NCBI GenBank assembly: GCA_004335835.1
Contig: RWJK01001180.1
Coordinates: forward strand, 8,229 to 72,228
Reading direction: 5' to 3'
Length of the DNA stretch: 64,000 nucleotides
Origin: Scenedesmus sp. ARA3
Lineage: Eukaryota; Chlorophyta; Chlorophyceae; Sphaeropleales; Scenedesmaceae
Every line of letters starts with the position of its first letter. The stretch's first letter is position 1. Positions 3,775 to 46,808 of this stretch are shown one piece after another. The notes below the pieces were generated by a model, which saw only the letters and a program-made list of their open reading frames with translations, was not told where the DNA came from and did not search any database. The translations under genes were made by a program, and so were the position numbers.

Positions 3775-4378
3775 ATCATGCCCCTGCAGCCAGGCCAGTA
3801 CTGCCCAGCAGCGTCCACTCCCCGTCCAGGCTAGCTTTAGGACCCCCAGCACTCCTCAGCTGCTTGACACGGGCTGGCGCATTTGCTGCAAGCCAATCGT
3901 GATGCCGTGTCTCATCATGCTCCAGCAGCCAGGCCAGCACTGCCCAGCAGCGTCAACTCCCCGCCCAGGCTAGCCTTGGGCCTTTCCAGCACTGCAAGCT
4001 GCACAACCACATACTCGTACAGCAGCCCGCCAGCAGTGGCCAGTGCAACTGCTAGCAGGGCACAGCAAAACAGTAGCAAGCTGCATCACGCCCCTGCAGC
4101 CAGCCCAGTACTGCCCAGCAGCGTCCACTCTCCGCCCAGGCTGGCCTTGGGGCCAGCAGCGCTGCTCAGCTGCTCGATATGAACTGGCGCATTTGCTGCA
4201 CATTTGCATGCAAACCAAGTGTGATGCCGTGTGTTATCATGCCCCTGCAGCCAGCCCAGTGCTGCCCAGCAGCGTCCAATCCCCGCCCAGGCTAGCTTTG
4301 GGCCCCGCAACACTGCTCAGCTGCTCCATATGGGACAGCGCGATTACTGCAAGCCAAGTCAGGAGATGTCGTGCGTCA
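3775..4378 (-). repeat. Tandem echoes of the ATG18 terminal exon
   Basis: Four diverged copies of the last ATG18 coding exon lie directly downstream of it, near 3778-3850, 3910-4075, 4085-4185 and 4237-4335. Each reads on the minus strand as a variant of GPKASLGGEWTLLG followed by a stop at the same place as the real exon. The copy at about 3910-4075 also keeps a degenerate LATAGGLLYEY segment. The others keep mainly the 3' half. Spacing is about 130-175 bp. Confidence 0.85.
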
Positions 4379-4523
4379 TCATGCCCCCGCGGCCAGGCCA
4401 GTACTGCCCAGCAGCGTCCACTCCCCACCCAGGCTAGCCTTGGGCCCCGCAGCACTGCTCAGCTGCTCCACTGCATACTCGTACAGCAGCCCGCCAGCAG
4501 TGGCCACCACAAGCGTCACCTGT

Positions 4524-4554: not shown

Positions 4555-7500
4555 CAGAGGCAGCCAGGCGCAAAGGTTTGGCCAAGTGCCTGGTAAGCTA
4601 ACAGCCACAAGAGATCATGTTGTGCCACAGTCAGCGGCTGGCTTGAATGTCGCCAAATTCTACAGCACTGACAGCCTGCATGGCTGGTGCGGTCGCGCCG
4701 AGCAGGCGCAAGCAAACACATTACCACGTTGTCTCTCCATCAAGATGTAGTATGTTTGACTCAACAGCACGTGCTGCTTTCTCGATGCATTGCGAACACA
4801 CCTCGTCATATCCTCCGGCATTGTGGCCACGTCACTCTGGCCAGACAGCGAGGACGCACCTCCTCCACCAACAGCTTGCTTTGTGTGTGCAAACTACACC
4901 AACAACTAGCACGTCGCCTCACACCATCTGCCAAACAGCTCAGGCACGAAATCCTATGAGCAAGATCAACGATTCAGCAGTCGGCAGCGCAAATGGTGAT
5001 CAGTTTAACTGCAATCAAACACGCACCTCGTCAGCATCCTCAGGCAGTGTGGCCACATCACTCTGGCAAAACAGTGAGGAGGCGCCCCCACATCACCGAC
5101 AGCTTGCTCCGTGTGGGCAAACTACACCAAACATCCAGCATGCTGCCTCACACCATCAGCCAGACAGCTCAGGCACAAAACCCTTTGAGGAAGGTCAATC
5201 ATTCAGCAGTCGGCAGAGCAAGTGATGATGCGGTTCAACTGCAATCACGCACGCTCGCACCTCGTCGGCATCCTCTGGCAGTGTTGCCACATCACTCTGG
5301 CCAGACAGCGAGGAGGCGCCTCCTCCACCCTCAAAGGCGTTGCCGCTGCTGCCAGTAGGGTGCTGCAGCGCACAGATGGCTGGCAGCCCTGCACATGGCA
5401 GCCTGATGTTGGCGATGCTGCGCTGCGGCTCAACCTGGGGCAGCACAGCGATGCAGGGTTTGATGAGCACATCATGAGTGTCGACGGCAAGTAAAAAGCG
5501 CGTGGCTTGGGACGTTTGAAAACACCAAAGCACTGTCCAAGCTGTTTGATAAACCAAAGATAACAACAATGATGGATGCTGGCGGTTCGTTACATGAGCG
5601 ACGCTTGATTGCATATGGCCGGCAACCCCGCACATGGCAGCCTGATGTTGGCAATGTCTTGCTGCGGCTCAACCTGCGGAAGTGTGGGTTCAGAAAGTTT
5701 GGTGGTAAAAGCGTGAAAGGGTACGGACAACACTGGATGAGATGTCTGGTGCACGCAGCTGTTAGGAGCGCAACAGCAATAAACAAATGTTCAAGGGGGG
5801 TTGCACAAATAGGATATATTGCTCAGCAGATCAACGATGAGCGCAACGTGGGATGCTACCGGCGCAGAGGTGCCTCGCGATCGCGCTGCATCACATGCTG
5901 CGTTAGTTGCTGCTTATATTGCCGCGTCTCCCTCTCACCATGTCTGTGACAGCAAAGTTGATCACCGCTGAGAGCAGCCCTGCGGCAGCACTCGCAGCAG
6001 CCGCAGCTGCTGACCGGTGCGGCTGCTCCAGCCGGAACAGGTGGATTGTGCCGTGGCTGCTTGCTGCTGCCAGCAGCGGCGGCTGGTAGCCTTCTGGGCT
6101 GAAGGCTAGGCAGTGTACTGCTGCTGGGTAGGTGCCGCGCCTGAAGCTGTACGCTTTTGAGGCATGTGGCATGGAGTACACCCTGCAGGCAGTGCAAAGC
6201 AGTGACAGCAGTACATATCAGGTGGAGACAGCACAAGTCATAGACAGGCATACTACACCTCAGCGGCCGGCAGTACACAACAGGGGCTTTCAGTACAACA
6301 CATTACATGCAACCGCAGGGAGATTAATAATATTGAGACTCCCTGGATATAACATGAAACTCGACGTTCAAGGGTGTGCATTGTGTTTTACGGTGCTCAC
6401 TCTTATTTTCTGGTCTCAGACCATGTGTTCAACCTGTTGTGGCTAATACCATTGAACATTGAAGATGGTGCCAGGACCCACATGTAACTATCCTCTCTCA
6501 TTACATGAACCGCAGTGTTGCTGGGAAGGGTTCAGCCTAAAGCAGCCACATATATTGACACACAACAGCCATATTGCACAACCACAGCTGTGTGCATCAG
6601 TACATAGAAGCAGCCGTGTTTGTCATCTCACCGTATGACTGTGCCTGTGCTTGAGGCAGTGGCTAGGAAGGCTCCATCATGGCTCCACGCCATGGCTGCT
6701 AGCGGTGCCTTGTGAGCCTGTGCAGTTGAGTTGAGAGCACAGTTCAACAATCATCAGGCGGGCGGCAAGGTGAGCCTCAGCAGTGGCATCTGCAGTTGAG
6801 GACATGTGCAGGGTGCAGAGCTGCGGAGGAAACGTACTTCAGACAGAACAGCAGTCCACAGCATGCTGCACCTCAGTCACCTGCCCTGCGGCAGCCACTG
6901 ATTCGTCATAACTGGCGATGCAGGCACATGATGTAACTGGTGGTGCATGCATCCTTAGTTGTAAGTGGTGGTGCAGGCATTCAGCTCACATGCACTTCAC
7001 ACACCACAAGACCGCCATCCTACAGCAGGTCAGACACCCACAGCTCTCTCTGAACATCAAGCAGTTGCGGTTGTCGTTCCTACTGCTCACCTGCACTTCA
7101 CACACATAACCGCCATGCCACCTGTCCTGCCGCCAGCGCTACCAGCTGTCAAAGCATTTCAATCAGCTGTCCATTGTTGTTCCTACTGCTCACCTGCACT
7201 TCACACACCACATGGCCGCCATCTACCAGCAAGTCATACACCCGCAGCACACCAGCAGCTGCACTTGCAGGAAGCGCCAGGTAGCAGCAGGGCTCGCTGC
7301 AAGGTGTCAGCGCTGCTAAGCCCTTGGGGTTTGGCGGCGTCTCTATGATGCGTAGCTGCGCCAGGGTTTGCAGCGCATGCACATGCACGCGGCCATCCAG
7401 CACTGCTACAAGCCTGCAGACCAGCAGACAGTCAAGCAGAAAGTCAAACATGAGTCAAACATTGCCCAAGGCATGGTGTGGCTATGACAGTGGTGTGCAG

Positions 7501-9185
7501 CGCGTGCACGTGCACGCGGCCATCAAGCACCGCCACTAACCTGCAGACCAGCAGAAAGTCAAACATGAGTCAAACACTGCCCAAGCCATGGTGACATTAT
7601 GACAGTGGTCTGCAGCGCATGCACATGCACGGGCCATCCAGCACTGCCACAAGCCTGCAGACCAGCAGACAGTCAAGCAGAAAGTCAAACATGAATCAAA
7701 CATTGCCCAAGGCATGGTGTCACTGTGACAGTGGTCTGCAGCGCATGCACGTGCACGCGGCCATCCAGCACCGCTACAAGCCTGCAGACCAGCAGAAAGT
7801 CAAACATAAGTCAAGCAACTAGTCAAACACAAGTTGAAGCCCGTTCAGCAGTGTTGCTGTGCGAGGGTCTGCAGCGCGTGCACGTGCACGCGGCCATCCA
7901 GCACCGCCACTAGCCTGCAGGCCAGCAGAAAGTCAAACGTAAGTCAAACATGAGTCAAACACAAGTTGAAGCCCGTTCAGCAGTGTTGCTGCGCCGGGGT
8001 CTGCAGCGCGTGCACGTGCACGCGGCCATCCAGCACCGCCACTAGCCTGCAGACCAGTAGTAAGTTGAAGATGAGTCAAACATCAGTCAAACATACGGCA
8101 TGATTTCACGGCGTCATGACAATGGTGGCGCAGCACGTGCACGCAGCCAACCAGCACCAAATGACAGCAGCACCAGTAATACTCAAAGAGTGCCTCCTGC
8201 TCCTTTGATGATGCCGCCGCTGTCCAATTGCATGCGCAACATACTGCTGCAATCCAACAAGCCTCACTGCATTCCACCGTGCCTCACCGCTGCTTATTGA
8301 GCCGCACTGCCAGCACGCTGCTGCTGAATGACAGGTCCCGTATGACGCTGCTGCTGCTCGTGTTGATCACCGACAGCCGCCGTGGCGTCAGGGAAGGCTG
8401 GTCACCTGCAGCACTAGCAGCAGTGTCAGGTTGCAATTTGCCTTGCCGCCCAGCAGCTGCAGTTGCTGCTACGGACGTTGGCAGCCGCAGGGCCTGCCAT
8501 CATTGTAACCGTCAGCTCTTGCAGGAACGCTGCGCTGGTGCCCGATGAAAACTGTGCATGAACTGCCCCTCCAACAAGCACAGCAGGCATGTTGCAGTGT
8601 AGCCCGAAAGTCCCAAGGCACAATATAGGATTCTGCTGGTGGCAGCTGCTTTCAACGCTTCGGCACATGCTTGCACGTAAAGTAGTGCGTTTGTGTTATA
8701 GCTTATTGGACCCACCTGCTCCTACATACGCCAGCAAGCTGGTGCAGAACAGCATCTCTGCTATCCTGCAAGAGGCAAGCGGCATGGTGCATGCATACAT
8801 GCACGAAAGCGTCAAGGCCCTGTTGCTGCCACAACAGCTGGCTACAATCTTGTAACACCAGCGTGGGCTAGGCATACTTTACCCCATTACTGCATACGCA
8901 CAGCTGCAAGCAACATGCTCAGTCATGTCAACACGTTTGGCAGGATGCAGCAGAGCAGGCATGGGCGGGCGGACGGGATAGTGCTGGTGTTCTGCTGTTG
9001 TGCTGCCATGCACAGCTACCATCTCACCCTACAGCTCCTATATCTTCTCGGTAACATATTTGGTGCGTTTCTATGTGGTAGATCCTAATGCCCTCGGAGG
9101 TTCCAATGCATATGCAGCTGTTGTCCTGGTTGAAAGCAATATGGATCAGGCCAGGCTTGTGACTGCTGCTACAGGTCAGTGACAT
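4379..9185 (-). CDS. ATG18: Autophagy-related PROPPIN ATG18/WIPI (WD40 beta-propeller)
   Basis: Eight exons join in frame: 9185-9028, 8765-8716, 8405-8288, 7413-7194, 6717-6632, 6182-5966, 5434-5261 and 4519-4379, giving 387 aa, a usual length for the family. The start MSLTCSSSHKPGL leads into the classic first-blade motif FNQDNSCICIGTSEGIRIY. Later blades show LFCTSLLAYVGAG, LTPRRLSVINT, ETPPNPKGLAAL and WSHDGAFLATASSTGT. The phosphoinositide-binding FRRG motif is intact at residues 224-227 (FRRGTYP). By family, it binds PI3P/PI(3,5)P2 on phagophore or vacuolar membranes during autophagosome formation. A small Ala-rich insert follows blade 5. The gene is unusual in its introns: exons 4, 7 and 8 are each surrounded by tandem partial copies. 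It is divergent from TDP2 with about 530 bp between start codons. Confidence 0.93.
4797..5107 (-). repeat. Two echoes of the 3' end of ATG18 exon 7
   Basis: Segments 4797-4880 and 5020-5107 repeat the exon 7 end at 5251-5343, covering the coding stretch for SDVATLPEDADE and its donor site. They sit about 225 bp apart inside the last intron in the same orientation. Both have frame-breaking changes. Confidence 0.8.
5610..5682 (-). repeat. Echo of the 5' end of ATG18 exon 7
   Basis: This segment repeats the acceptor and first about 60 bases of exon 7 (real copy 5375-5440), including a CAG acceptor and the code for VEPQ..IANIRLPC. It lies in intron 6. Confidence 0.8.
6980..7117 (-). repeat. Short echoes of the 3' end of ATG18 exon 4
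   Basis: Two segments (about 6984-7019 and 7080-7117) repeat the donor region of exon 4 found at 7186-7222, with the shared core CTCACNTGCACTTCACACAC on the plus strand. They lie in intron 4. Confidence 0.65.
7485..8065 (-). repeat. Five tandem echoes of the 5' end of ATG18 exon 4
   Basis: Copies centred near 7510, 7630, 7755, 7890 and 8020 repeat the acceptor and first about 50 bases of exon 4 (real copy 7374-7420). The period is about 116-135 bp. Most encode a variant of LVAVLDGRVHVHALQTLA after a CTGCAG acceptor. The linkers share an AGAAAGTCAAACATGAGTCA-like segment. All lie in intron 3; only the 7413 copy continues into the rest of the exon. Confidence 0.88.
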
Positions 9186-10140: not shown

Positions 10141-13003
10141 GCGGGAGTGGCAGTGCTGCTGCTGCTGCTGCTGGTACTGGCTTCAACAACTCTGATCTGC
10201 GGGCACTACATGAGGCCCGCATGCGCAGACAGCAGCAGCAGCAGCAGCAGCAGCCGGATGAAGGAGCCAAGCAGCAGGAGGATGCAGCAGGGGGTGAGCC
10301 CATCTGCTGCTGGACTGTACCTGGGGGTGGTGCAAAAGCTTGTTGTCAATACTGCAGACACAGACTCTTTGCCGCGTCAAGCGCTGCTTGTGGTTCTTGT
10401 TCCCTTTTGCATGACCTCTGCCTTCAATACACCACAAAACAATCTGCTCCTGCCAGCACAAAGCCGGATGATGCCGCAAAGCCAAACATTCAGAAGTCTA
10501 CTGATGCTCTGCACAAGCTCTGTTTTCTTTCACGTATGTTTGTGCCTGCTTCCTTCAATCACTACCATGTTCTGCCTACAGGCAGCGAGCCTGCATCCAC
10601 ACCAGCAGCAGCAGCAGCAGCAGCAGGCAGCTCGCGCAGGCGGCGTTCCCGCAGCCCCCCTGCAAGGCCCGCTGCTGCCAAGCCAGCAGCAGGCAGCTCC
10701 GCAGCTGCAGCATCTGCTGGCGCTGGCAGCAGCAGCATCAGCATCAGCTTGCTCACCTACAATGTATGGTGCGTTGGGGTGCTGCTGTGCATGCATCACG
10801 AGCAGAACAGCCATAGATGGTATGGGACAAGCTGTTACTGCTGGCATCCAACTTCCGGCAGAATCTGCAGTGTACTGTGCAATGATCCAGCAACAGCAGT
10901 AGGGCTTATGCTCAGCAGCCCCCGTCTGCGTGCATGCAGGAACAGCTGGTTCTGCTGGAGCAAGCTGCTTTCTCATGCTTGCCTGCCAAATCCCTGGCCT
11001 GTAGTCTTACCGCATCTGCCCAAGCCCTGGCTGCCTGCCTATACCCTGCCTGCTGCTCAGGTTCAAGGAGGAGGTGGCTGTGCTGGAGCGCATGACAGGG
11101 CTGGCTGCTGGCCTGCCTGAGTGTCGGCTAGCATTCTGCCTCATCTGCCTAAATCCTGGTTGCTTGTCTGCCTGCTGCTCAGGTTTAAGGAGGAGGTGGC
11201 GGTGCTGGAGCGCATGACAGGGCTCGGGGACATCATCCGCAGGGCTGGCCTGCCCACCTTCATCTGCCTACAGGTGAGCTGTTTGTTGGTGAATCAATTC
11301 GTGTTGTCACTTTCCGCAATCAGAAAATCATGGTGACATTGTGCGCAGGGCTGGCTCGCCCACCTTGATCTGCCTGCAGGTGGCAGTTGCCGCTTTTTCG
11401 CCTCCTTTGCTTCAGTACTCGGAACATGGCAGTGCTGGTATGCGGCTGCAGCAACGCAAGGCATGTGCCTGGAGGAATGTTTATGGTCGGCAGTCGCCGC
11501 TCTATGTTGAGTCAGTTTGACCAGGAGGTACCGCCAGTGCTTCCAGCACTCCTCTGCAACATGGAGTGGTGCAGCAGTGCGTCCCCAGCCCCCACCCCCG
11601 CAGCATGACCTATTGTACTTGTGCTGTCCCGGAACGAACTGCTATTTGAAAGTGCTGAACTCTGCTGTACCTGCAGGAGGTGACGCCGCTCATCCTACAG
11701 ATACTCTGTAACATGGAGTGGTGGCAGCAGTGTGTCCCTAGGCCCCACCCCCGCGACGTGGCTTACTTCATTTGTGCCGAGATATGACTGCTTTCTTTTT
11801 CAACTGCTTTTCAACTTTCGAATTGAACGTGCTGTCTCGTGTTGCTTGTGCAGGAGATTACGCCACTTATTCTTGAGATCCTCTGTAACATGGAGTGGTG
11901 GCAGCACTACGTCCCCAGCCCCCACCCCCGCAGCGTGACCTATTGTACTTGTGCTGTCCTGTAACAAACTGCTATTTGAAAGTGCTGAACTCTGCTGTAC
12001 ATGCAGGAGGTGACGCCGCTGATCCTACAGATCATGTGCTACTGGAGTGGTGGCAGCAGTATGTCCCCAGCCCCCACCTCCGCCACCTACCTTACTGCAT
12101 TCCTGCTGTCCTCTGCTGCGGTTGCATAGCTCACTTCATCTGCACTGCCCTATGCTGTCTTTGTGTGCAGGAGGTGACGCCGCTGATCCTAGAAATACTG
12201 TGCAACATGGAGTGGTGGCAGCAGTACGTCCCCAGCCCCCACCCCCGAGACATGGCCTACTTTACACTGCTGCTGGTCAAGCGCAGCGCAGACCCCAGCC
12301 TGGGCCAGGCGGCGTTTTCACACCGTGAATTCGGCAACTCTGTCATGGGTGCGTGGGCTCTTACTGGGCACTGGCAGCACTTTCTTTTAATTTGTTTAAG
12401 TAGTAGTTTTGCATGTGTTATGCTGCTGGTCAAGCGCAGCGCAGATCCCAGCCTGGGCCAGGCGGCGTTTTCACATCGTGAATTTGACAACTTTGTCATG
12501 GGTGGGTGGGCACAACCTTCATACATGCGTGCTGCGCTGCTAGCACATGCGGAATGGATTGAAATGCGAGTGTGCTGTTAGTGGTGATGTGCTTATGCAA
12601 CCAGCAGTGGTGTGGAGCCGCCCAGCGTGCTCAGAAAGTGTTGCGAACTATTTTCAGCATCTGTCTCATGTCTACGTGGGATCTGTGTGGCACTTTCTGA
12701 TGACGAGTTGGTGTGCGATTGCGGAGTGTACGCACCCAGCTGATGTTTACAGCCACCCAGCTGCCTCTGTGCTTTGCAGCAAGCAGTTGCGCTACACAGC
12801 CGCTCTAGCTGGCTCTGGGCCATCTGGCCAGGGAGCAGATTGCCGCTCTTGCAACAATGTTGTGTTGCTATCTGCTGGTCCTGCACTGTCTGGCTTCGCA
12901 GGGCGTGGCATGCGCAGTGTCAGCGCAAGCATCGGAGGGCAGCAGGTGCTGGTGGCCACATCACACCTGGAGAGCCCCATCCCGCCACAGGTGGGCTGCA
13001 ACA

Positions 13004-13038
<35 letters not shown>

Positions 13039-14175: not shown

Positions 14176-14992
14176 AGCTGGGTGGATGCGTGGGCCACGC
14201 TACAGCCTGGCAAGCCTGGCGCGACGTATGACGCTAAGAGCAACCCCATGCTGCCCTTCAAGGGCACACCAGCACTGCGCTTGGACAGGTGATGGGGGCA
14301 GCGGCACGAGGCTCGTTTATGTTGCTTGCTTGACTAGGCTGGCTGCTTGCGCGCTTGTAGTGTTGTGCGGTGATAAAGCGTGGGCACGCCGCCGCTGTGC
14401 CTGGACAGGTGGGAGGAGGCAGCAGCACACGGCTGCTTCATGTTGCTTGCTTGAGTAAGCTGGCTGCGTGCACGCTTGTGGTATTGCGAGGTGGTCAGCA
14501 TGTGCGCCCGAACAGGCGAGGGCGGCAGTGGACTTCAAGAGCATGCATGGCTAGAGAAGAAAAGTGTGTGCTGCTGCGTTCTTGCTGCTGCGTTCTTGCT
14601 GCTGCATGCTTGCTGCGTGCTATCTGTGGTGTTTGGCGATTGAACTGATTAATGTGCCGGGCCGGCTTCGCTGAAACAAGGAAGGCTGGCTGGAGGCAGG
14701 GCAGCATAGGGTCGCTGGGCTTGCAGCAGCAACAAAGCGCCTGATTATGCTGCGCAAATTGTCAGCGTCGTTTCGGCAATTCTCGCACTACTCCCATGTT
14801 TCGCTTTGCAACGCTGCTTGCAGGATCATGTGCAAGCTGCGTGACTGGCGGCTGGGCAGCATTGAGCTGGTGGGCAACCAGCCGCTGCCTGGCGTCACGT
14901 ACAGCCACAGGTTCAGGAATGGCGGCAGCAAGGAGTTGCCGGTGCTGCCCAGCGACCACTTCGGGCTGCTGCTGAAGCTGGAGCCGGTGTAG
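9717..14992 (+). CDS. TDP2: Tyrosyl-DNA phosphodiesterase 2 (TDP2), endonuclease/exonuclease/phosphatase fold
   Basis: Nine exons join in frame: 9717-10293, 10582-10768, 11183-11273, 12171-12348, 12902-12990, 13248-13335, 13611-13662, 14178-14288 and 14824-14992, giving 513 aa. By family, it removes 5'-phosphotyrosyl topoisomerase II adducts from DNA ends. All catalytic signatures are visible: TYNVW (251-255), ICLQEVTP with Glu286, TSHLES (366-368 region), GDMN (404-407) and SDHFGL (501-503). The chosen start gives VVDLTLSDSDDD at residues 4-15, a textbook SUMO-interacting motif followed by acidic residues. The N-terminal 190 residues are low complexity (poly-A, poly-Q). An upstream in-frame ATG at 9531 exists but is not favoured. 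Introns 2, 3, 4 and 8 contain echoes of the adjacent exons. The exon 8 acceptor is a CTG-repeat tract. Confidence 0.95.
11061..11104 (+). repeat. Echo of the 5' end of TDP2 exon 3
   Basis: These 44 bases repeat the start of exon 3 (11183 onward, coding for FKEEVAVLERMTG) directly after a CTGCTCAG acceptor, 122 bp upstream of the real exon. Confidence 0.9.
11340..11380 (+). repeat. Echo of the 3' end of TDP2 exon 3
   Basis: The segment repeats the code for RRAGLPTFICLQ and the donor site seen at 11238-11276, with substitutions. It lies in intron 3. Confidence 0.85.
11524..12090 (+). repeat. Four tandem echoes of the 5' half of TDP2 exon 4
   Basis: Copies start near 11524, 11678, 11853 and 12008, and the real exon starts at 12171, so the period is about 154-175 bp. 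Each carries a (C)AGGAG acceptor and about 80 bases coding for variants of EVTPLILEILCNMEWWQQYVP. The catalytic Glu codon is retained in all four. Copies differ by substitutions and small indels, and none continues into the second half of the exon. Confidence 0.93.
12420..12500 (+). repeat. Echo of the 3' half of TDP2 exon 4
   Basis: About 80 bases repeat 12271-12352 (code for LLLVKRSADPSLGQAAFSH) with its donor, about 150 bp downstream of the real exon end. Confidence 0.9.
14130..14177 (+). repeat. CTG-repeat tract forming the TDP2 exon 8 acceptor
   Basis: An almost pure (TGC)n run ends in CTGCAG, which is the predicted 3' splice site. The expected polypyrimidine tract is replaced by a trinucleotide repeat. 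Confidence 0.75.
14397..14465 (+). repeat. Echo of the TDP2 exon 8 donor and intron start
   Basis: The segment repeats 14278-14345: the last coding bases (TTGGACAG), the donor, and about 55 bases of intron. This shows that the duplicated unit includes intron sequence. Confidence 0.75.
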
Positions 14993-15532: not shown

Positions 15533-18500
15533 ATGTCCAACATCAATCGTGAGGCCCTGCTGCGGGCCGCTGAGGCCTTCTCGTCGTCAGAAAGCGACAG
15601 TGGAAACATCTCAGACCGTAAACGAAGTCGATCGCCATCAGCTAAGCGCCACAAGAAGGAGAAGAAAGCCAAGCACAGCAGCAGCAAGCAGAAGCACCAC
15701 AAGAAGCACAAACGCAGCCACAAGCGCAGCGAGCATGAGAAAATTCAGGAGTTCGAACGAAGAGCAGCAGCAATGGGTGCCGGCGGCATGCTGCCTCGCC
15801 TTCCTGCAAGCCTTGCTGGCTTATCTGCAGCCACAGCAGCAGGAGCAGGCGATGCTGCTGTTTTGGACACAGTGGGTGATGCCAACAACACCATGTTTGA
15901 GAGCTTGCATGCAGGCTCTGTGCCAAGGTACAGCAGGCTGGACCCACTGAACATCGTCAGCAGCAGGGCACGACTGACGTGGCAAGCGCAGCTGCAGCTG
16001 CCAGACACTGACGCAGGCAACAGCAGGACAGACAGGTAGGAGCCTGGTTTTAGTTGGTCTCTCTATCTGTTGGTTTGTGACATGGAGCGCCTGCAGCAGC
16101 AGCTGCTGCGACTGGCGCATCCCGCACCAACATCGCCTACTGTTCATGGCAACGCCTTGATGCATGGTCAGCTGCATTGCCTGCGGCAAGCACAAACACA
16201 CACTGCCTGCAACTTTTTGTAACCAGACGGTGTCCCTTGCTACTCCTTGCTACTGTGCAGGTTCTTCAAGGGCCGCCACGTCTTGCAGGAGCGCAGCAGG
16301 CAGGCGAAGCGCATCCACCTGGCAGACCTGAGACCTAAACCACACACAGCAACACAGCTGCAGCAGCAAATTGGCTCAGGCGCAAGCCTGCTCATGCCCA
16401 GCAGCAGCACCACACAGCAACAGCAGCAGCAGCAGTTTGGTGGGGCAGCGCCTTCAGCAGCAGCTGCTGGCAAGAAGCTGGTGATCCCTGCGCCTGCCTT
16501 CATCCCCCTAGAGCTGCCAGAGCAACTGGCAAAAGCAGCAGCAGAGGCGGCTGAGGGAGATGCAGCAGCAGCAGCAGCAGGAGGGGCCGGGCTAGGGTTT
16601 GGTCCTGGCTCAGGGTTTGGCGGTTCAGCAGCAGCAAAGAAGCTTGAGCCGGAGGTCCTTGTGGAACAGGTAGGCGGTGTTGGGTGTTGCTTTTGCAGCT
16701 ACAGCTGCTGCCACGCTCTCTATCATGCTTTGTGGCTGCACCCGATACGCACAGGCTGCACTAATGCAGTCATCTCAATCCCACATGTTCACATGTTCAC
16801 ATGTTCACATGTAATATAACACTATTTGTAACACTGCTGCCCTGCAGGCGGGCCTGTCAGCGGATGAGCTTGTCCTGCAAGCAACACGCGCCTGGAATGT
16901 TGCTGTGCGGGAGCGCCCTCAAGATGAGCAGCTGTGGCTGGACTTTGCTGCCTTCCAGCACGCGGCAGCAAAGCTGCTGCAGCAGCAGCGCGGCAGGTGA
17001 GCTTGACTTAGGTGTGTGGTGTGTTGAACTTTGCTGCCTTCCAGCATGCAGCAGTAAAGCTGCTGCAGCAGCAGCGTGGCAGGTGAGATGGACAGAGCTT
17101 GTGTGGCGTGGCTAGACTTTGCTGCATTCCAGCACGCGGCAGCGAAATTGCTGCAGCAGCAGCGCGGCAGGTGAGATGGATTCACGTGTGATAAGCATGT
17201 GCCTTCCAGCATGCGGCAGCAAAGCTGCTGCAGCAGCAGCGTGGCAGGCGAGTTTGCAAGCATGTGTTGTGTTTCAAGTTACGTTCTGCCTCTTTGTGTG
17301 TGGCAGCACAGCTGGTGCTGCAGCAGTGCAGCAGCTGGGGTGGGAACCACATTGATTACTTTCATGTACTGCATGCTGCTCTGCTTGCTGTGCTGCACTC
17401 ATGCAGGTCTGATGCCGCAGACGCCGCAACAGCAGAGAAGCAGATCTCGCTGCTCACACGCGGCCTCAGCCACTGCCCCTCTTCTCCAGCGCTGCTGCTG
17501 GCGCTGCTGCGGGCGTATGCTGCTGTGGCGCCTGATGCTGCGGCTCTTGCTGAGAAGTGGCGGGGCGTGCTGGCGAGGCAGGGTGGCAGCTGGCTACTGT
17601 GGCGGGAGTTTTTGGCCCAACAGTGAGTTGTCAGATTCTTGAATATCAATCTGTTTTGCAAATATCATAATAACATGTTGAGTTGGCGGCAGGGCGGCAG
17701 CTGGAGTGGAGTTGTCAGATTCTTGGATTTTATTCTGTTGTTTGCATGGAAGTCAGGTTAGTGTGGGAGGGCAACCTGTTGAGCGGATGCTGCCCCATGT
17801 ACTACATTGCTATGCAAAGGCTTTGCAATTTCCTCCTGCATGCTGATGGTAACAACTGCTCACAACGGCTTGCTGCCCTGACTGCCCCTGCAGGCAAGCC
17901 AGCTTTGCCAGTTACAGCATCAGCGCGGTGCAGCAGGCCTACCACCAGGCCCTGCATGCACTCTACATGGAGCTACTGCTCACTCGCAGGAAAGCAGCAG
18001 CAGCACACAAACAGCAGCAGCGCTACGCAGCACAGGAGATAACCCCGCAGCAGCTGCAGCAGCTGTCGCCGGCAGCTGCTGCAGCAGCAGAGGGAGGCGG
18101 CAGCGGCACTGCTGCAGCTGCGGCAGCTGCTGCTGTGCCATTGGCGGCAGGGGAGCAGGCGCTTGAGCTGCAGATGGTGCAGCTGCTGCTGGGGCTGCTG
18201 CACAGCGAGCTGCAAGCGGGGCACAACGAGCAGGCGATTGCCAAGACTCAGGTGTGTGAAGCGTGCATTAGAATGTTTGGTTAGGTGCTCAACACCCATA
18301 ATCCTTGGCCTCTGCAACTATTCACACACTACTCACGTCTTCAAATTGGTCGCAAATGCGACACAATTTTTGACCGCCTGTGCAATGGTTTGAACCTCTG
18401 GTTTGTGTGTTCGACCAGGTGCCACCTGATTCAGCCGCCCACACACTGTTTGGTGGTCTTTCGTTGTTTTACCACCCATATGTTTGACCGTTTGACCAGG

Positions 18501-27053: not shown

Positions 27054-27058
27054 TGTAA
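27054..27058 (+). promoter_or_regulatory. Candidate UGUAA poly(A) signal
   Basis: TGTAA lies 38 nt after the AKR stop. UGUAA is the usual poly(A) signal of green algae, so the downstream exon echoes are probably outside the main transcript. Confidence 0.5.
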
Positions 27059-27121
27059 CATGCAGCAATTGAACTTTTTGGGCGTGTTGGGGCAGATTTT
27101 AGCTACCCACATCTGATCCCC

Positions 27122-27752: not shown

Positions 27753-28399
27753 ACCTGCCATCCTTGGTACCACATGTAACTTACAAGGATCGCCCACCGA
27801 CAACGAGGCCCTGTGCGTACACTGTGCCTAGGCAGTCGGGGCTCGTGGGGTGGAAGTTCGGGGGACCACTTCTTGCCATGTGAGTACGCATTATGTTGCA
27901 TCATGCTTATGCTTGTAATGGATGCAATCGGCAACTTTCTTTATATGGGGTCCAGCAACATACAACAGACAGAATGACATCAGCGGAGCGAAATAACTTT
28001 CAGCAAGCTCCTTCAGTATCAAGATCTAAGGCACACAAGTGACTAGATCATGTAAGCCATGAAGCGCCAACGGCACGCAACCAATGCAGCCCATCTGTAA
28101 TCAAGAGTGGCAAAGGACGAATAAGAATGTCCATATGCAGGAAATGCATGGCTGCGCGCCGTCACGCTGGACCAGGAGACCCCTGCCCAACGTCTCCTGA
28201 CGCTCTGATTGGGCTGCCATGCAAGCACAGAAGTCCGGCAGCATGCCATCAAGCAATATACACACCGATAGCGCCAGGGAAGTGTGCAGCTCAGCAGCTG
28301 CAGCGGTCTCAACAAGTGGCACACCCCGGACATTAGGCCACCTGCAACAGTGTGCTGCGTGGCCCAAACATGTTTATTTTGGTGAAGCACACTTGGTGA
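27753..28399. other. Gene-poor stretch after the AKR echoes
   Basis: Nothing coding is supported. Base composition is less CAG-rich than the genes. No tRNA or transposon signature recognised. Confidence 0.4.
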
Positions 28400-35201: not shown

Positions 35202-38200
35202 ATGCGGAGCTACGGGACCAGCAACGGAGGCCAAGCTGTTGAAGCCCTTCGTCGCAACGCGCACAGCGTGAGCATTCGCCGTTGCTTCGCTTATGTTGCT
35301 TTTTCAGACCCACCTCACTTCAGACAAGGCCGCTGGCGGCAGATCCTGCACTGAAATGGCAGCCTGCGTAGTTCAACAGTCAGCTGCAGTAGCACATGTG
35401 CTGTACAGGCACATGTGCTACTGCAGCTGACTGTTGAACTACGCAGGCTGCCATTGGTGGTACAGGCCTGTACAGCACTGCAGGCACAGGCATCGTGTGC
35501 CAACAGCAGCACTGGCATTGCTTCAGCACGTGCGTGAATGCCCAAAACCGTCACATAACATCCTTCATTGCTGTTTTTCAAGTGTTATGCCTGCTGTGTG
35601 TTGCAGGTGGCTGGCACTGGTATCAGCAGCACGTCCCACAGGACTGCAGCGCTGCCAGGCGTAGCGGTCATAGGCTTTCAGGGCAGCGGTGAGTGACCTT
35701 TTCACAACATGCTGCTCAGGGGAGAGCAAGGAGCCCTTGCACACGGTGTATTGCTTCTCCACACATTACGCTAGCTGGCATGGCCTCTGCACTGTGTGCC
35801 TTGCATAGTTGCTGCGAACTGTGGGAGGGTGCAGTATGACACACAGCCGTGCCACATGCCGTGTCAGGACTGCTTGCACATGCGGCTGTGATGCACAGGC
35901 TGGTAGCGTGTCATGCCACATGCAACAGAGCTGCATGCGACAAGCCCTGTGGGCAATGGGCATGCATGCAGCCGCTTGCACACATGCGCTGCATTGTATG
36001 CAGCACAGCTTGCACCCAGGCCCCAGGCACAACAATTCCCTGCCAGGCTGCATACAGGAGAGCTACTAGTAGTACATATACTGCATTTTGCGCATGTGTG
36101 CTGGGGGGGATGCGACAAATCACAGGACCACAATGTGCTTTGCTGAACGAATGAGCTGCCGCTGCACTGCGCAATGCGCCCCGACTGCACCTGCACCGCC
36201 TGCCAGGCAAGTCATCCACCATCAATGCGCTGATACGCCACTGGAACCACACAGCCCGGGGCAACAATGAAGATGCCTACATGGAGCAAGAGGTAAAACA
36301 TTACGGAGTTGCTCCAGCCATTGCTGTGTGTGATGAGCGCAGGCATGGTTTGTTTGCAGCGCATGCACGAGATCGTGCTACGTACAGCAGTGCACAATCC
36401 AACACCTGCTATGAGGCAGGCAGCAAGGAGTGCTTGCGCAACCCGGATCTGTTGTCCAAGGTAATCGTGCAGCTCACAGCCTTGCTGCGCACGCTTTATA
36501 CCCAGGTGCCATCCCTTATCCCCTCAATTGCTGCTGCTGCTGCGGCTGCTGCTGCTGCTGCTGCTGCTGCGGCTGCTGCTGCTGCGGCTGCTGCTGCTGC
36601 TGCTGCTGCTGCAGCTGGCCCAGCTGGAGTCATCCGGCATCAACTGGCTGCAGCTGCTGCAGTGTGACAGGGCCTACAGGGATGCTGACCCAGACTGCAG
36701 CAAGCAGGCACTGGTGAGCTGCCGGAATAGAGCCGGGGATGATCCATGACATCTGCTTCGTTGGTCCAGCTTTGCTTGAAGGTGCGCAGCCTTGCCTTGA
36801 CTGTGTAAAGTTGTCTTCACACAGCACTGCCGCAGTGCTACCCAGTTAGCCAGAAGTGCAGCATTACTCAGCATGTGCATTCATGTGGGTTCCAATGGCA
36901 GAGCAAGTATGTTCCTTTCTCCTGTCACTGCCTGTAGGATGAGTGCAACCGTGTGGTGCAATGGAGCGATGATGCAGCAGCAGCTGCTGGTGGTGCGGAG
37001 CTGCTGGGCTTTGCACAACAAGACACAGCGCAGGTTGCGCAGTGGGATGCACAGGCAGGCCTTGAGGGCCCCCGCCACCTGGGCCTTGCCAGGCTTGACT
37101 TTGATCCTCTCAAGGCTGACTACCTGGCTGCTACTGGCAACGAAGGCCACACATCCATCACCTCAGCGGCGTACGGACCTGGTGAGATGGGCTGCAAAAG
37201 AGAGATGGGGGGTTACATGTGGGTCCTGGCACCATCTTGATGTGTGCATTTCTGGCTGCATGCTTGTGCTGTGTGTCTCATCAGGGACAGCTGACACCAA
37301 CAACCCAACAGCACAGTCGTCGCCTCTTACCCGCATGTTAACACTGCCACTTTGTCCTGCTTCAAGCAAGAACAAGTTGTTCACCGCTGGCGCATATCTT
37401 ACTGCCTGTGTGTGCGCCTGTCGCACAGCCCCAGAGGAGAGCATAACGCCACCTCACCTGCTGTGTTGTGTATGTGTACACTTGCTGCCGCATGCTTTCA
37501 TCCCCGCATTTTCAGGCCCAGAGGAGAGCGTCACACTACCGCACATCTCCCCTGCGGCTGTGATGCGTGCATACCAAGCCCTGCAAGACGCGGCATCAAA
37601 AGCCCGGGACATCTGCAGACGCATCAGCCAGCAGCAGGACGCGGCTGCTGCTGCTGCTGCTGCCGAAGGCGACAGCAGCGATGACGAAGACCAAGTCAGC
37701 ATGGCAGATGCAACAAACTGCCTTCACAAGGAGCCTGTGCGCTTGGCGCTTCGGCTTCTGGGTCACTTTCAACCTGCAGAGCAGCTGAGGGCTTTGACAC
37801 ATATGATGCAGTTGCCTGGCCCTGTAACTTTTCCAAGTGCCCTGCGGGATGTGATGGGCTGCACGTACACGTACAGGTGCGCTCCAGCTTTTGACTCTGT
37901 GCTACCGATATTGTGTGTGTGATGCACTTTGCGTGTATGATTGCACTTGCACACTGTATTTGATGGCACCAAGCCTGCATAAGGAGCCAGTGCGCTTGGT
38001 ACTGCGGCTTCTGGGGCACTTTCAGCCTGCAGAGCAGCTGCGGGCCTTCACAGATATGATGCAGTCGCCCGGCCCTGTCAACTTCCCAAGCCGCCTGCGG
38101 GATGTGATGGGCTGCACATACACCAACAGGTGTGGGCCACAGCTGCTGGGGAAGGTACTGTTGGCATGGTATGCTGTGTGTTGAGCATGCACCATGCATG

Positions 38201-41200
38201 GTATGCTGTGTGCTTGCACTGTTGGTGTGTAGAAGCTGGATGGGTGCACATGTGCATTCTGCAGCAGAGCTGCAATGGGTATACGGCTGCAAGGGACGGC
38301 GGCTACCTCAGGCGCTGCGTGCGTGGGTGTGTGGTGTACGCGCTCTGCATGTGCGCTTGCACCTGCTCTTGCACTCTGTATTCAGCAGGCAAGGCAGCAG
38401 CAGCAGTAGCCACTGCTGTCCCTCTCATGTGTCTTGCAAGTCCATCACGCACCACATGCTGCTGTGCACCTGTACCTTCCATACTGTGCAAACCCCATGC
38501 TTGCTTCGGCACCAAGCACCAAGCACAAGTCAGTCTTTCTCAAACATCTGCGCTGCTCCTGCTGCTGCTTGTCTCCTGTGCACTCGCAACTCCCATCACC
38601 CCACACAGGCCCGCACAGCAAGCCGCTCCCATGCCCCCGCAGCTCTGGCGCACAACAAACAAAACCTGCTGTGCACATTCATTATCCCGACTGCGCATAC
38701 ACCCCTGTTCTTGCATCACACCAAACATAAAGTGATCACCCTTCCACATGTACGCTGCCCTGCTACTGCACATGTCTGCTGTGCACGGCAGGCTAGCACA
38801 ACAGGCCGCCCCCATGCCCCCACAGCTCTGGCGTGTCATCGCCAAGCGCCTGGCCCTAGTAATCCTGCAGCAAGGTGCCAGCAGCAGCTCTCCACCGCTG
38901 AGTCACTCATCTGCCTCCAGCTGGAGGATTGCTAGGGCCAGGCGCTTATCGGGAACCACAATTTGTCGTGCACTCACCCCATCCATATTGTGAAACTACC
39001 ACGCTTGCTTCAGCACCAAGTACCCAGCACAAATCAGTCCCCCTTACACATACGCGCTGCTCCTGCTGCTGCATTTCTCCTGTGCACTCGCCACTCCCTC
39101 CACCCCACACAGGCCAGCACAACAGGCCGCTCCCATGCCCCCGCAGCTCTGGCGCGTCCTAGCCAAGTGCCTATCCCTATCATTCCTGCAGCCAGCCTAC
39201 AACCCGCTGTGTGCAGCACTGCAGGGCTGCCGAGTTAGCCTGGGCAGTCCTGAGCAGTGTGGCATGCAGTGGTCACTCATGGACACTCGCGGCACTTCTA
39301 CCACATCAGCAGCACAGCTGCGCCACTTGGAGGCCCAGGGGCTCATGCCTGTGAGTGCAGCGCTGTTTCTGGTGGCGTCTTCGCCTGAGGGGGAGGCCTC
39401 GGCTGGTGACATGCATCAGCTGGCTAAGAGCATGCTGCTGGCGCCAGTGCTTAGAAGCCTAGCCAGCAGACCTGCTGCTGCTGCTGCAGCTGATGCTGCC
39501 CCTAGTGCGCCTGTGCCTGCAGCAGCTGGTGCTGCAGGTGCAACAGTTGGGCAGATCAGCAGACCTGCAGCTGCTGCCGCCGCTGCTGCTGCTGCTGCTA
39601 GTGCGGCGGTGCCTGCAGCAGCCAGCAGCGCCCAGCTGCCAATTGCGCTGGTGCTGCTTGGTGATAAGGTGTTTGCTGATGCCTTGTCAGCAGTGCGCAG
39701 AGCATACGACGCAGCGCGCACGGCGGCTGCAGCTGCTTGCCTGGGGCAGCTCATCACTCAGGATGATGCAGAGCGGCAGCTGCTGCGCTGCAGCCGCGGT
39801 GAAAGCCCCGACATACCTGCAGCGGCTGCACCAGACTTCAGTGCTGCTTGCTTTGCCCTGCAGCAGGCATGCCGCGTCCTGCAAGACAGGCAGCAGCGGG
39901 GTGAGCGCAACTTGCTGGGTCAGCTAGTGCAGCGGCTGCGCTGGCAGCCACAGTGCATGGGTGCTACTGAGGCAGCTATTGAGGCATGCATCGAGAGCTG
40001 CGTGCAAGTTATCACGCTGTACCCTCGCTGTGTATCAGGCAGCCACCCAGGCTTTCCGAAACTGGATGAGCAGCAGGGCGGCTACACCAGCTTGCAGGAT
40101 TTCCTGCAGCAGGTGGCAGATAGTGTGCAGGGACAAGCTGCAGAGCTTCAGCAGCTGCAGCAGCTGCAGGATCTGGCAGCGGCAGCGACAGCTGTCTTCA
40201 GAAGAGTGCCAGAGCTGTGCAGCATGGCGGCAAGTGCATCAGCAGCAGCAGGGGGTGCGGCTGGTGATCCAGAGCAGCTGCTGCAGCTGTTGCAGACGCA
40301 GCTACAGCCGCGTTGGGTGGCAAGCATTGAGCAGCTGTCAAATGCCATAGCTCCTGGCGGCCACTGCCATCGCCTGCTGCAGGGCGAGCTGTTACAGCAG
40401 CTGCAGCCGCAGCTGCAGCGCTGCACGCCAGAAGGCGCGGTGGCTGCTACGGTGCTGGCGTTTGCACCGGAGCTAGCACAGCAGCCGGATGTGGCTGCTG
40501 CTTTGCGGGCCAAGGGCTTGCTTGGCTTGCTGGACCATCCTGCTGCTGCAATGGTACTTGTGAGGTCTGGCGGGCGCAAGGGCTTGATCAAGGAGCTGAG
40601 GGAGTTGCTCATCCAAGGCATCAGCCGCCCGCCTGGGCAAGTGAGTATCACGCTTGATTGACAGTAGCTGGTGTGCTGTGGTTTTGCCTATCGTTGCGCT
40701 GTTGGTTCTAGTCTGCGGCAGGTTGCGTCGCTGTGGTGTGCTGTGTGCTGTTATATGCTTTGCCGACGCACTGCGGCATTGCTGTGCTTGCAGCCATGCG
40801 CTGCCTTGCACTTGTCACTTTACTGTGACTTACTGACCAAGGAGCTGAGGGAGCTGCTGATCCAAGGCATCAGCCGCCCGCCTGGGCAAGTGAGCAACAC
40901 CTTTTGTTGATATTTGCTGATTTGCTGTGGTTTGCCTATCGTAAGACTGCCGCAGGTGGCATCGCTGCTGTGTGCTCTGTGTTGTCAAATGCTTTGCATT
41001 GGTTTGCCGACGTACTGGTGTGTTGCTGTGCTTGCAGCCATGCGCTGCCTTGCACTGCCACGTCACTGTTGCTTACTGATCAAGAGGCTGAGGGAGCTGA
41101 TGATCCAAGGCACTAGCCGCCCGCCTGAGCAAGTGAGTACCGAGCTTCATTGCCAGTTCCTAGCGTTGTGTCGTTGGTTCCAGACTGCTGCAGGTGTCAA

Positions 41201-44200: not shown

Positions 44201-46808
44201 ACACCTAATGTAGAAGCCAGGTTGAGGGTGCAGCGCACAGTAGCAGAATATGAATTGGCCTCTCTGTGGGCTGAGCAGCGCAGCTAGAGTGTACTGTAAG
44301 GCAGCAAGCAGCCCTGCGTGGTGCCTCTGCAGGATTGCCTTGCCAGTGGCCAAAGCTTTGAGAAGTGTGCGTCCCGCTGGCGGGCAGGTGTGCAAGTACG
44401 CCCTCTGCAAGTGCTGCAAAACCGCGTGTAATGGCTGCTGTGTGCAGGAGCGCATCTTTGTGTACACGCCTGCCGGTGCTGCCTGCGGCATCCCCTTCTC
44501 TGAGACAGGCTTCCTGGCATACGCAAGAAGCGCCAGCGATGCAAAAGCAGCCGACAGGCAGCCGCCAGATCCCAGCAGCTTGAAACTGCTGTCAAATGCA
44601 CAGAAGCGCTCTCTACTGCGCAGGGTGAGGGGTTACACCCAGTGTTGATTCTGGATGGTTCAGCAGTGCTGTGCATGGTGATTGACAGTGATCATGGGCT
44701 GAAGATTGAGTCACTGCTTCAGCCAGCATTGCATGTCAAACAACACTGTGGTGGCACATCAGGCAGCACAGGCTCCAGGACTGCACATGCAGGGAACCGC
44801 CACCAATAATGCATGTGTGAAACTTGCAGCAGCTCCTGAGACCTCAACCTGTGATGATATGCGTGTGCAATGTATGCGCAGGTCGAGAAACACAACGCAG
44901 CACGTTCTCGCACCCGGCAGGTGACAGCTTCAGCAGCAGCCTCAGCAGCAGCAGCAGCAGCTGCAGGAGCAGCAGCAGCTGATGGTGATGATGATGCTGC
45001 TGAAAACAGGCCAGTGCAGCGCAGGCGCGTAGAAGATGAAGCAGCAGCAGCAGCAGCAGCAGCAGCAACTCCAGCCAGCACAGGGTCAGTACAAGCTCCT
45101 TCCCCTACCAGTGCAGCAGCAGCGGCAGCGGCAGCAGCAGCAGCAGCTGCTGCAGCACAGGTGTCTCCTCTGGCCCCACCAGCCTCCAATGTGCCAAGGG
45201 GTGCCAGCGGCTTGGCGCGCAACCTCGCGGCTGCAATGGACTGGCAACCGCAAGATACGCACCCCACAGCACGGGTAAGCCAGCTGTGATTGAAGTAGGG
45301 TGTTCTGCTTTCAGATTTGCAGGGGTACAGATATCCACTCATCATGTTGCTGTTGTGCTGTGCTTGCATACTAGCTGCCACAGGCACCCATTTTTAACAG
45401 GCTGCCATGCTGTGTGTGTTTCTGCACAATGCACACACCGCACACCTGTGCTGCGTCAGAGCAAATGGTTGGATTACGGACTATTCATGGACATGGCATG
45501 CATGTGACGTCACTTGCAGCAACATTATTGCGGCGGGTTGTTGCGTGACTTCTGGGTCCTGCCTTCAAATGTGGTGGCATGCTCCTAGGCAACCTTTTAC
45601 CTCTCCATCTTGCTGCAGTGTCTGCACAACCTTGCATCTGCTGCAGTACCTACCCATGTTTATGACATGTCCTTGTGCCGTAATTTGCTTCTACAGGCAA
45701 CTTCTATTGGCGCTGCTACTCAAAACGCAGCAGCGCTGCCAGCAGCAGCAGCAGCAGCAACATCAGGGGCAGCAGCAGGAACAAGAGCAGCGCCGTCAAC
45801 AGAGGTACCGGATGCAGAGATGGATGAAGCACGGCCACCATCATCACCAGCAGTAGTAGCAGCAGCAGGAGCGGCAGCAGCAGCGATCATGCCCACCGAC
45901 ACGGTGCAGGATCCTGTCCCTGCGTCATTCTCAGATCGCAGCAGAAGGGAAGCAGCAAAGCTGTATGCAACCTACCTGAGCACTGATGGCCCGCAGCAGC
46001 CACGCAAGCTGCAGCCTGGCAAGCAGCGCTGGAGGCTTGGGGGTCCCGGGGTTGGGGCAGATGTTGAGGTGGAGGTGCACTGCAACGACAGCGAGAAGCT
46101 AGGTGAGTGATACTCATGTATTGTCAGTACTGGCCTGATCAGCAGAGGACCGCGCACTGCATGCCAACCAGAATGCCTTGGCAGAGCAAACCATGGTAGG
46201 AACCACAAGCTTCTAAAGATTTCGCTGCTCACAAGAGTGTGTTGAATTGCGACTTTGTGGTGTGCAGTAGTGATGGCCTGAGACAGGGTGATTGGCATCC
46301 CCCAGCCTTGTACTTGAAGCACGTGCAGGCAGTTGCTGCCTGCATACATGCAATCAGTGCTGCCGCTAAGCCCCTGCTGCGTGCCGCGTGCTGTGTGCTC
46401 TTCTTGCGGTGGCTGCCGATTTGCGCACTTGCAGCCTTAGTCACTTTCCAGAGTGAGGTCGGGCCCATGCAGTCACTCCATCACTTCTTTCGAGGTTTTC
46501 ATTCAGTTCTGCTGCCAACTGTGTGTCACACCTGCATGTTCTGCTTGCGCTGCCTGTCTGTTTGTATGCTTGCAGCCTGGGTCGCTTTCCAGGGTGAGCT
46601 CTTCACCAAGCCTGGAGTGCTGGGCAGAGAGGCATGGAATGCATGTGTACGCGCAGCAGCACAAGGCAGGCAGCTGCAGGAGGCTGATGTGATGAGTGAG
46701 GGCAGCGTGTGGCGCAAGCGCAAGGAGCGCAAGTCTTTTGAGCACACGAGGGAGCTGCATGTCACTGTCGGCGGCATCTGGAGGCTGCTGTGCACGCTGC
46801 TGGAGTAA
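35202..46808 (+). CDS. Very large P-loop GTPase, SLIP-GC/dynamin-superfamily-like
   Basis: Fourteen predicted exons join in frame: 35202-35267, 35607-35688, 36207-36460, 36615-36713, 36938-37181, 37516-37876, 39113-40640, 41360-42307, 42583-43557, 43904-44161, 44448-44624, 44882-45274, 45697-46102 and 46576-46808, giving about 2007 aa. Walker A is GFQGSGKS (45-52), split by intron 2. A possible switch I is HTSITSAAYGP (about 238-248). The DxxG switch II is LMDTRG (426-429), followed by MPVSAALFLVASSPEG. The order and the TS..YG segment recall the nuclear GTPase SLIP-GC, but the spacing is much larger and no clear NKxD is seen (IALVLLGDK is a candidate). The rest is long helical sequence with poly-A/poly-Q and no domain I can name. 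The first exon and the unity of the model are uncertain; the last exons might be a separate gene. Many introns carry exon echoes. Confidence 0.6.
35355..35455. repeat. Perfect 47-bp inverted repeat (hairpin) with 7-nt loop
   Basis: Left arm 35355-35401 and right arm 35409-35455 are exact reverse complements, with loop TGTACAG. It lies in the predicted first intron of the GTPase gene. A second small palindrome, GTACAGGCCTGTAC, follows at about 35460-35473. Transcribed RNA would form an uninterrupted 47-bp stem. Confidence 0.95.
37424..37470 (+). repeat. Echo of the 5' end of GTPase-gene exon 6
   Basis: Repeats 37516-37555 (code for GPEESVTLPHISP) with substitutions, about 90 bp upstream. Confidence 0.75.
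37972..38130 (+). repeat. Echo of the 3' half of GTPase-gene exon 6
   Basis: About 155 bases repeat 37720-37877 (code for LHKEPVRLALRLLGHFQPAE through the donor). The frame is fully open, with conservative changes such as QLP to QSP, so it could be an alternative or duplicated exon if an acceptor upstream of 37972 is used. Confidence 0.92.
38605..38874 (+). repeat. Two echoes of the 5' end of GTPase-gene exon 7
   Basis: Copies at about 38605-38650 and 38788-38874 repeat 39107-39195 (code for AQQAAPMPPQLWRV.AK). Intron sequence upstream of each (a TGCTCCTGCTGCTG run and CTGTGCACTCGC) is repeated too, so the unit is about 180-500 bp. Confidence 0.88.
40838..41132 (+). repeat. Two echoes of the 3' end of GTPase-gene exon 7
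   Basis: Copies at 40838-40895 and 41078-41136 repeat 40588-40644 (code for KELRELLIQGISRPPGQ plus a GTGAG donor), period about 240-250 bp. Flanking intron sequence (TTTGCCTATCGT, GCTTGCAGCCATGCGCTGCC) is shared between units. Confidence 0.93.
46432..46465 (+). repeat. Echo of the 5' end of the last GTPase-gene exon
   Basis: Repeats the acceptor CTTGCAG and about 25 bases of the exon at 46576 (code for AWVAFQGE, with changes). This is the rightmost echo I found. Confidence 0.7.

Follow-up and report, generated by a model that had tools for sequence, protein, structure and literature searches.

In a stretch of 64,000 nucleotides of contig RWJK01001180.1 from the green alga Scenedesmus sp. ARA3 (GenBank assembly GCA_004335835.1; 87.3 Mb in 1,567 contigs), which we call the window, introns contain diverged partial copies of the end of a neighbouring exon, together with its splice site. 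We call these copies echoes. The rule common to the arrays they form is that one foot stands in a coding exon and that the reading of the mRNA is able to stay unchanged. We propose, with a probability of about 70%, that they result from a recurrent tandem duplication of segments having one foot in an exon, the extra copy being masked by splicing or by a stop codon. By the protein comparisons given below, the genome is that of Tetradesmus obliquus or of a very close relative.

Six genes, named ATG18, TDP2, NRDE2, AKR, SET and "GTPase" in a preliminary description of the window, were read exon by exon, the exons being fixed by anchor strings. The models comprise 37 exons and 31 introns, and all six joined models are in frame. 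A comparison of the window with itself by BLASTN gave 60 same-strand matches against 6 opposite-strand ones, and 57 of the 60 are less than 1 kb apart: the copies are local and co-oriented, as had been described. Each exon end (150 exon bases plus 40 intron bases) was then aligned by the Smith-Waterman method with the rest of the adjoining intron, and a match was kept when its score was at least 44 and it included at least 12 exon bases. We obtained 40 same-strand echoes, spread over 19 of the 31 introns, while the reverse complement of the same introns gave none; the echoes announced by the preliminary description are therefore real, and all six genes carry them, as it had claimed. The target for these 40 echoes amounts to 26.5 kb, each intron being counted once per side. 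The other introns of the same gene gave 4 echoes in 95.6 kb, and the introns of other genes 9 echoes in 606 kb, which is about 100-fold poorer than the own introns. Because reversed and foreign introns yield almost no echoes, a chance similarity between CAG-rich sequences is not the cause.

An echo contains 23-149 exon bases and 3-40 intron bases (40 being the upper limit of the intron side of the query), and all 40 overlap the junction by at least 3 bases. Donor echoes number 23 and acceptor echoes 17; they occupy 15 and 7 introns respectively, 3 introns having both, and a junction has from 1 to 6 of them. The spacing between neighbouring echoes is 77-183 bp for 31 of the 40, 225-262 bp for 8 and 321 bp for one. 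The spacings of the arrays are thus grouped, as if the length of the unit were quantised. For the best pairs of 38 arrays found elsewhere in the genome, the periods are 63-161 bp (28 arrays), 189-205 bp (3), 243-261 bp (5), 462 bp and 869 bp.

The sample outside the window consists of 25 loci, namely twenty 10-kb stretches from long contigs (200 kb) and five more stretches (50 kb), 250 kb in all. Near direct matches number 76 against 2 near inverted ones in the first set and 26 against 4 in the second; 8 of the 20 stretches and two of the five have no near direct match. Near repeats cover on average 5.4% of the bases in the 20 stretches, 0-15% in the five added loci and 12-31% in the first 40 kb of the window, and the density in the first 20 loci may be low because they were taken from long contigs. 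Splice boundaries were predicted by a gene finder trained on the window, which recovered exactly 31 of the 37 window exons and sometimes called echoes exons. With a score threshold of 56, stricter than the 44 used in the window, we found 45 junction-spanning echoes at 34 of the 788 predicted boundaries, in 10 of the 25 loci, with donor and acceptor sides about equal (22 and 23). There was none on reversed flanks and none in 2.27 Mb of flanks of other loci. Matches in the interior of exons were only 2 and matches at their edge 4, against the 45 spanning a junction, and this is what a contiguous tandem copying requires. The echoes therefore recur beyond the window. The absence of junction-spanning matches in foreign flanks, together with the fact that positions 24000-25400 of the window, in AKR, match only themselves in the whole genome, speaks against introner-like or other dispersed elements, and the earlier statement that this is not dispersed transposition holds.

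The window contains 27 near-tandem arrays. Splice junctions carry 22 of them (21 inside modelled introns and one at the acceptor of the first exon modelled for TDP2), stop codons 2, and 2 lie outside the gene models; one is purely intronic. Over the modelled introns this last array, a pair flanking a run of N, is the sole intron-only case, and exon-only arrays are absent. The echoes had been described as sitting at exon-intron boundaries. This is correct for most arrays but not for those made of a stop codon and its 3' flank (AKR, 26870-27757; ATG18, 3775-4506), nor for the pair at the N run (26612-26800); the pair at 46396-46601, outside the gene models, is left unassigned. Since the two arrays at stop codons have the same anatomy as the others, splicing cannot be the sole condition.

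To what extent does geometry alone place duplications on junctions? Units of 90-250 bp were placed at every position of the same models, and a unit was called silent when it covered one junction or lay in intron only. Geometry then puts 31-58% of the silent duplications on a junction, while 21 of 21 were observed there; at the highest expected share, the probability of this is near 1e-5 if the arrays are independent (a hand calculation). Since intron-only arrays are lacking, plain geometry is rejected as an explanation of why the arrays span junctions. In the 20 stretches elsewhere, chance would put 19.3 +/- 2.8 of the 38 arrays on predicted junctions; 32 are found there, a number which not one of 2,000 random shifts reached. 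The remaining six are noncoding only (4), exon only (1) and mixed (1). Because these junctions come from a gene finder that had the window as its training set and that calls echoes exons, this result is supportive and not an independent proof. A scan for likeness to a junction, with a composite score also trained on the window, gave a median of 22.7 for the 38 arrays against 15.2 for the null, 8 of the 38 exceeding the 95th percentile of the null, and so lends support to an enrichment at junctions.

It could be objected that tandem duplications are ordinary and random, without any preference for junctions, and that we see the boundary cases only thanks to the conservation of exons. Constraint on the exon does prolong the visibility of a copy, and some arrays are not on modelled junctions: the window has two beyond its gene models (28466-29835 and 46396-46601), and four of the 38 elsewhere are, as mentioned, noncoding only. 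However, among simulated copies in seven settings, 91-100% of the intron-only ones were detected, against 97-100% of those at junctions. Intron-only copies of like age are thus nearly as detectable, yet none exists in the window models save the pair at the N run. The simulated effect is too small for a detection bias from exon constraint to be the source of the junction excess, and the 32 arrays found on junctions elsewhere also exceed what random placement gives. We hold this explanation to be improbable. Taken together, the counts of echoes, the junction arrays and the 250-kb sample support the recurrent local tandem duplication across exon-intron boundaries which the preliminary description had suggested.

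We imagine the process as follows. A short segment (with spacings mostly of 77-183 or 225-262 bp) that reaches from a coding exon into the adjoining intron or, at the end of a gene, past the stop codon would be duplicated in tandem, and this would happen repeatedly. The molecular step would be slippage or the fill-in of a break. The extra copy would be masked: with one of the sets of splice sites, or with the first stop codon, the original mRNA and protein would continue to be made. Duplication would start preferentially in exons, and those copies lying wholly within an exon would be purged by selection. In the masked copies, changes would accumulate largely neutrally, the true exon end remaining under constraint; hence each echo would be the fossil of an exon end and each event would add about one unit to the intron.

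A neutral echo facing a constrained exon predicts divergences of about e, e and somewhat under 2e at the three codon positions, and of 2e in the intron part. In the 250-kb sample, the mismatches between true exon and echo are 84/852, 61/857 and 142/848, with 130/929 in the intron part, which roughly agrees with the prediction. In the window they are 86/834, 56/833 and 176/840, with 138/912 in the intron part. The gaps in the exon part shift the frame (they are not multiples of three) in 39 of 41 cases in the window and in 28 of 29 in the 250-kb sample, and the exon parts of the window echoes contain 4 stops in 800 codons. The frame-shifting gaps rule out translated alternative exons as the general case.

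Several results weigh against the masked duplication that we propose, or at least against its simplest form. The third-position divergence of the window (176/840) is above the neutral expectation. Echoes of the window compared with each other are also biased towards third positions (95/653, 63/645 and 165/668), although the pairs are not independent; because of this lack of independence, chi-square values on divergence overstate the certainty. Of the changes found in a single echo, 22, 16 and 34 fall on the three codon positions (P = 0.04 against uniformity); according to hand sums, the three arrays with at least 4 echoes contribute 16, 11 and 13 of them, which speaks in favour of our proposal, and the arrays with two echoes 6, 5 and 21. 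A hand sum over the 17 echoes of the window that have no more than 5 exon mismatches gives 9, 7 and 44, a bias which is not strongly repeated by 25 echoes of the 250-kb sample (21, 12 and 31). Furthermore, the lack of intron-only duplications has no demonstrated cause. The last points in this series concern the echoes whose intron part is of 10 bases or fewer (14 of the 40 in the window and 14 of the 45 in the 250-kb sample). In the window, 12 of the 14 show no significant homology beyond this part, one of the 12 being borderline (P = 0.029); thus in AKR the exon 5 donor echo (24965-25018) has no significant intron homology beyond GTGAG. In the 250-kb sample, these echoes have 10/258, 9/259 and 36/261 mismatches by codon position. 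They are not older there than the others, and their third-position excess is not what plain neutral copying in tandem would lead one to expect.

By comparison, 20 of the 26 window echoes with a longer intron part have a significant intron homology (P < 0.02). Simulated copies of the age of the short-intron-part echoes are still detectable, and a tandem unit should have copied a stretch of intron. Such echoes reflect either a constraint, or gene conversion with the true exon, or a copy which ended at the splice signal; of these we favour gene conversion, which would account for the missing intron homology. The third-position surplus in general is probably due to the echoes being successive snapshots of an exon which changes synonymously, and some constraint may also act on the echoes themselves. 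It is conceivable, though we only put it forward tentatively, that splice junctions and stop codons are the preferred sites for copies to arise or to survive, in a junction-directed cycle of duplication and conversion which makes introns grow, the subset having exon and splice signal but no intron being kept as used half-exons or by conversion.

The echoes could also be functional, as alternative half-exons or as splicing decoys kept by selection, and this would explain both their position and their splice signals. GT is retained in 20 of the 23 donor echoes and AG in 15 of the 17 acceptor echoes. Echo donors and true donors have the same median score (9.7), and echo acceptors score lower than true acceptors (medians of 8.9 and 10.8). 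The junction specificity of the arrays, these donor scores, the third-position differences of the closest window echoes and of the short-intron-part echoes of the 250-kb sample (most such echoes being without shared intron), and the third-position bias between echoes agree with such a function. On the other hand, the gaps break the frame nearly everywhere, the 250-kb sample shows a similar divergence at codon positions 1 and 2, and a neutral decay of about 8.5% per site would by itself leave about 19 GT and 14 AG (hand estimate). Moreover, the database proteins corresponding to AKR, ATG18 and TDP2 contain no inserted echo sequence in their aligned parts. We therefore consider selection for such a function as unlikely. 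The decoy or alternative splice sites foreseen by the preliminary description are supported as far as motifs go.

Could the arrays come from the assembly, two haplotypes or collapsed repeats having been joined in series? One such case seems to be present: an identical 35-bp pair (26612-26800) surrounds a run of 119 N (26647-26765) and seems to be an overlap which the assembly failed to merge, and not an echo. A second allele could likewise explain copies whose introns are dissimilar. But this is the only N run in the window, the arrays reach seven graded copies, and near matches other than this pair range from about 68% to 94% identity. The 1.4-kb AKR stretch at 24000-25400 has no second copy in the assembly, and vegetative cells of T. 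obliquus are regarded as haploid in the part of PMC5966456 concerned; on these grounds a stringing of haplotypes is rejected. As to false duplication, which leaves identical or allelic copies on the two sides of a gap, only the 26612-26800 pair fits. An origin of the arrays in the assembly is thus very improbable.

Intron growth is commonly credited to transposons or random insertion. Here, the introns with echoes have a mean length of 573 bp and those without 300 bp (P = 8e-5), bearing in mind that a longer intron also gives more room for echoes. When the spans between each true junction and its most distant echo are removed, the echo introns fall to 249 bp, which is not significantly unlike the echo-free ones (P = 0.18). 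This supports the lengthening of introns which had been suspected, and the introns affected by the duplication process seem to have become about twice as long. The spans represent 42% of the modelled intron bases. In the passages of PMC5966456 on this point, the mean intron length is 462 bp in T. obliquus UTEX393 (a different, 108 Mb assembly) and 230, 302, 284 and 270 bp in four relatives; a share of 42% suffices for introns 1.5-2 times as long as those of these relatives.

How do the echoes compare with known systems? One of the closest is a potato RdRp gene, where, according to passages of PMC4974935, the 3' side of an intron and the 5' side of the next exon were copied in tandem and partly spliced out. 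The potato case concerns a single gene and a single event, which created a new intron, whereas in the alga dozens of events lengthen existing introns, on donor and acceptor sides, without changing the modelled number of introns. In the AGGT intron gain of Rogers and Hellsten, as told in PMC4974935, and in the Drosophila examples given by Lehmann et al. (PMC2891723, in part), a tandem duplication is likewise silenced by splicing; in the AGGT model, however, an exonic AGGT is duplicated and the copy becomes a new intron, while the algal unit already holds a splice site and usually some intron sequence. Intron gain by tandem duplication is set aside here: the echoes lie within single modelled introns, and the database proteins of AKR, ATG18 and TDP2 have no extra exons in their aligned parts. 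So are exon duplication and mutually exclusive exons, since no window array covers two junctions and the gaps shift the frame; the 250-kb search, which asked for a further 25 bp of exon outside the copied part, did not look for whole-exon copies. The variable internal tandem repeats of duplicated human genes (PMC2812944) also have units at exon-intron boundaries, which splicing may remove or leave in place, but they concern recent paralogues, with 27 intron modifications tabulated, and the passages at hand report no genome-wide pattern specific to junctions. Finally, the fill-in of staggered breaks by CST and polymerase-alpha (PMC8355091) could be the molecular source of such local direct duplications; the passages concerned, however, describe short (<100 bp) human duplications, and substrates with 50-bp overhangs in cultured cells, and make no link with splice junctions.

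The preliminary description knew of no named class for such copies at this density. Duplication in tandem across a boundary has already been published, in the extracts just cited for potato and human; the density is new among the literature listed. In our literature search, which covered few subscription papers or preprints, such echoes in Scenedesmaceae were not described among the matches listed, which for two long lists were the best 20 of 1,195 and the best 15 of 8,738. As far as these matches go, the new elements are the density, the preference for junctions, the silent lengthening of existing introns from both sides and the counterpart at stop codons. The echoes would provide a series of fossil exon ends within introns, and a natural experiment in the choice of the spliceosome among near-identical sites. 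They are also a warning for gene prediction, as the gene finder trained on the window called several of them exons.

The individual arrays are as follows. On the minus strand, ATG18 (a PROPPIN gene) has its last coding exon end and stop codon copied in the 3' flank (3775..4506; the stop-containing motif occurs at 4 places). Its exon 6 (5261-5434) has a donor array (4796..5329; echoes 4994-5097 and 4799-4869) and an acceptor array (5373..5682; echo 5612-5682), and its exon 3 (7194-7413) a donor array (6984..7248; echoes 7057-7146 and 6984-7044) and an acceptor array (7352..8186; six echoes within 7478-8186). On the plus strand, the TDP2-like gene has a copy upstream of the acceptor of its first modelled exon, 11183-11273 (array 11010..11224), and a donor array at 11226..11388 (echo 11332-11388); exon 12171-12348 has four echoes upstream of its acceptor (11499..12265) and one at its donor (12268..12511; echo 12421-12511), and exon 14178-14288 one at its donor (14262..14493; echo 14382-14449). 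NRDE2, on the plus strand, has arrays at the donor of exon 3 (16934..17343; four echoes with a period of about 86 bp), the acceptor of exon 6 (18482..18784; echoes 18482-18532 and 18581-18670) and the donor of exon 7 (19476..19838; echo 19738-19834).

AKR, on the plus strand, has arrays at the acceptor of exon 4 (24065..24281; echo 24065-24139, with 5 exon differences, all synonymous) and at its donor (24362..24563; echo 24505-24563), at the donor of exon 5 (24839..25018; 3 exon differences in the echo described above, all synonymous), at the donor of exon 7 (25696..26066; echoes 25825-25936 and 25950-26066, in units of 134 bp) and at the donor of exon 8 and acceptor of exon 9 (26315..26605; donor echo 26420-26468, acceptor echo 26542-26605). 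Its last exon end and stop codon form the array at 26870..27757, with a period of about 244 bp; a motif that includes the stop codon occurs in exact form at 3 places. In the SET-like gene, on the minus strand, the donors of exon 31708-31807 (31448..31759; echoes 31550-31634 and 31448-31521) and of exon 32224-32640 (32096..32246; echo 32096-32126) are concerned; the noncoding array at 28466..29835 lies beyond the 3' end of this gene, with spacings of about 106 to about 250 bp and matches 68-85% alike. In the "GTPase" gene, on the plus strand, arrays are found at the donor of exon 37516-37876 (37720..38139; echo 37981-38139), and at the acceptor (38475..39195; echoes 38572-38651 and 38789-38874) and donor (40585..41175; echoes 40756-40929 and 41077-41171) of exon 39113-40640.

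As regards the genes themselves, Pfam found NRDE-2 in part of the NRDE2 model and a Rubisco-LSMT domain in the SET model, where the SET match was slightly under the cut-off. The database proteins matching ATG18, TDP2 and AKR gave PROPPIN, Exo_endo_phos and aldo/keto reductase respectively. For the gene called "GTPase", Pfam gave no match in the 240 residues tested. Rfam gave no match on the window at gathering thresholds. The AKR reading (323 amino acids) is 100% identical to T. obliquus OEZ86_012580, and the ATG18 model is listed as 100% identical over 343 amino acids to another T. obliquus protein (P0241), one residue differing by eye. TDP2 (window 10900-15200) is identical to OEZ85_002615, of another strain, at 253 of 258 positions; it thus differs from the OEZ85 strain at 5 residues, when AKR equals the OEZ86 strain over all its 323. 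To judge from these two proteins, the named strains of T. obliquus may be quite diverged. Around 22150-23022, the first 70 or so residues of the database AKR protein (P0001) are those of the C-terminus of NRDE2, probably because gene prediction fused the two neighbours. CAG/CTG runs are very numerous, in exons and introns alike, with dozens of period-3 rows across the window.

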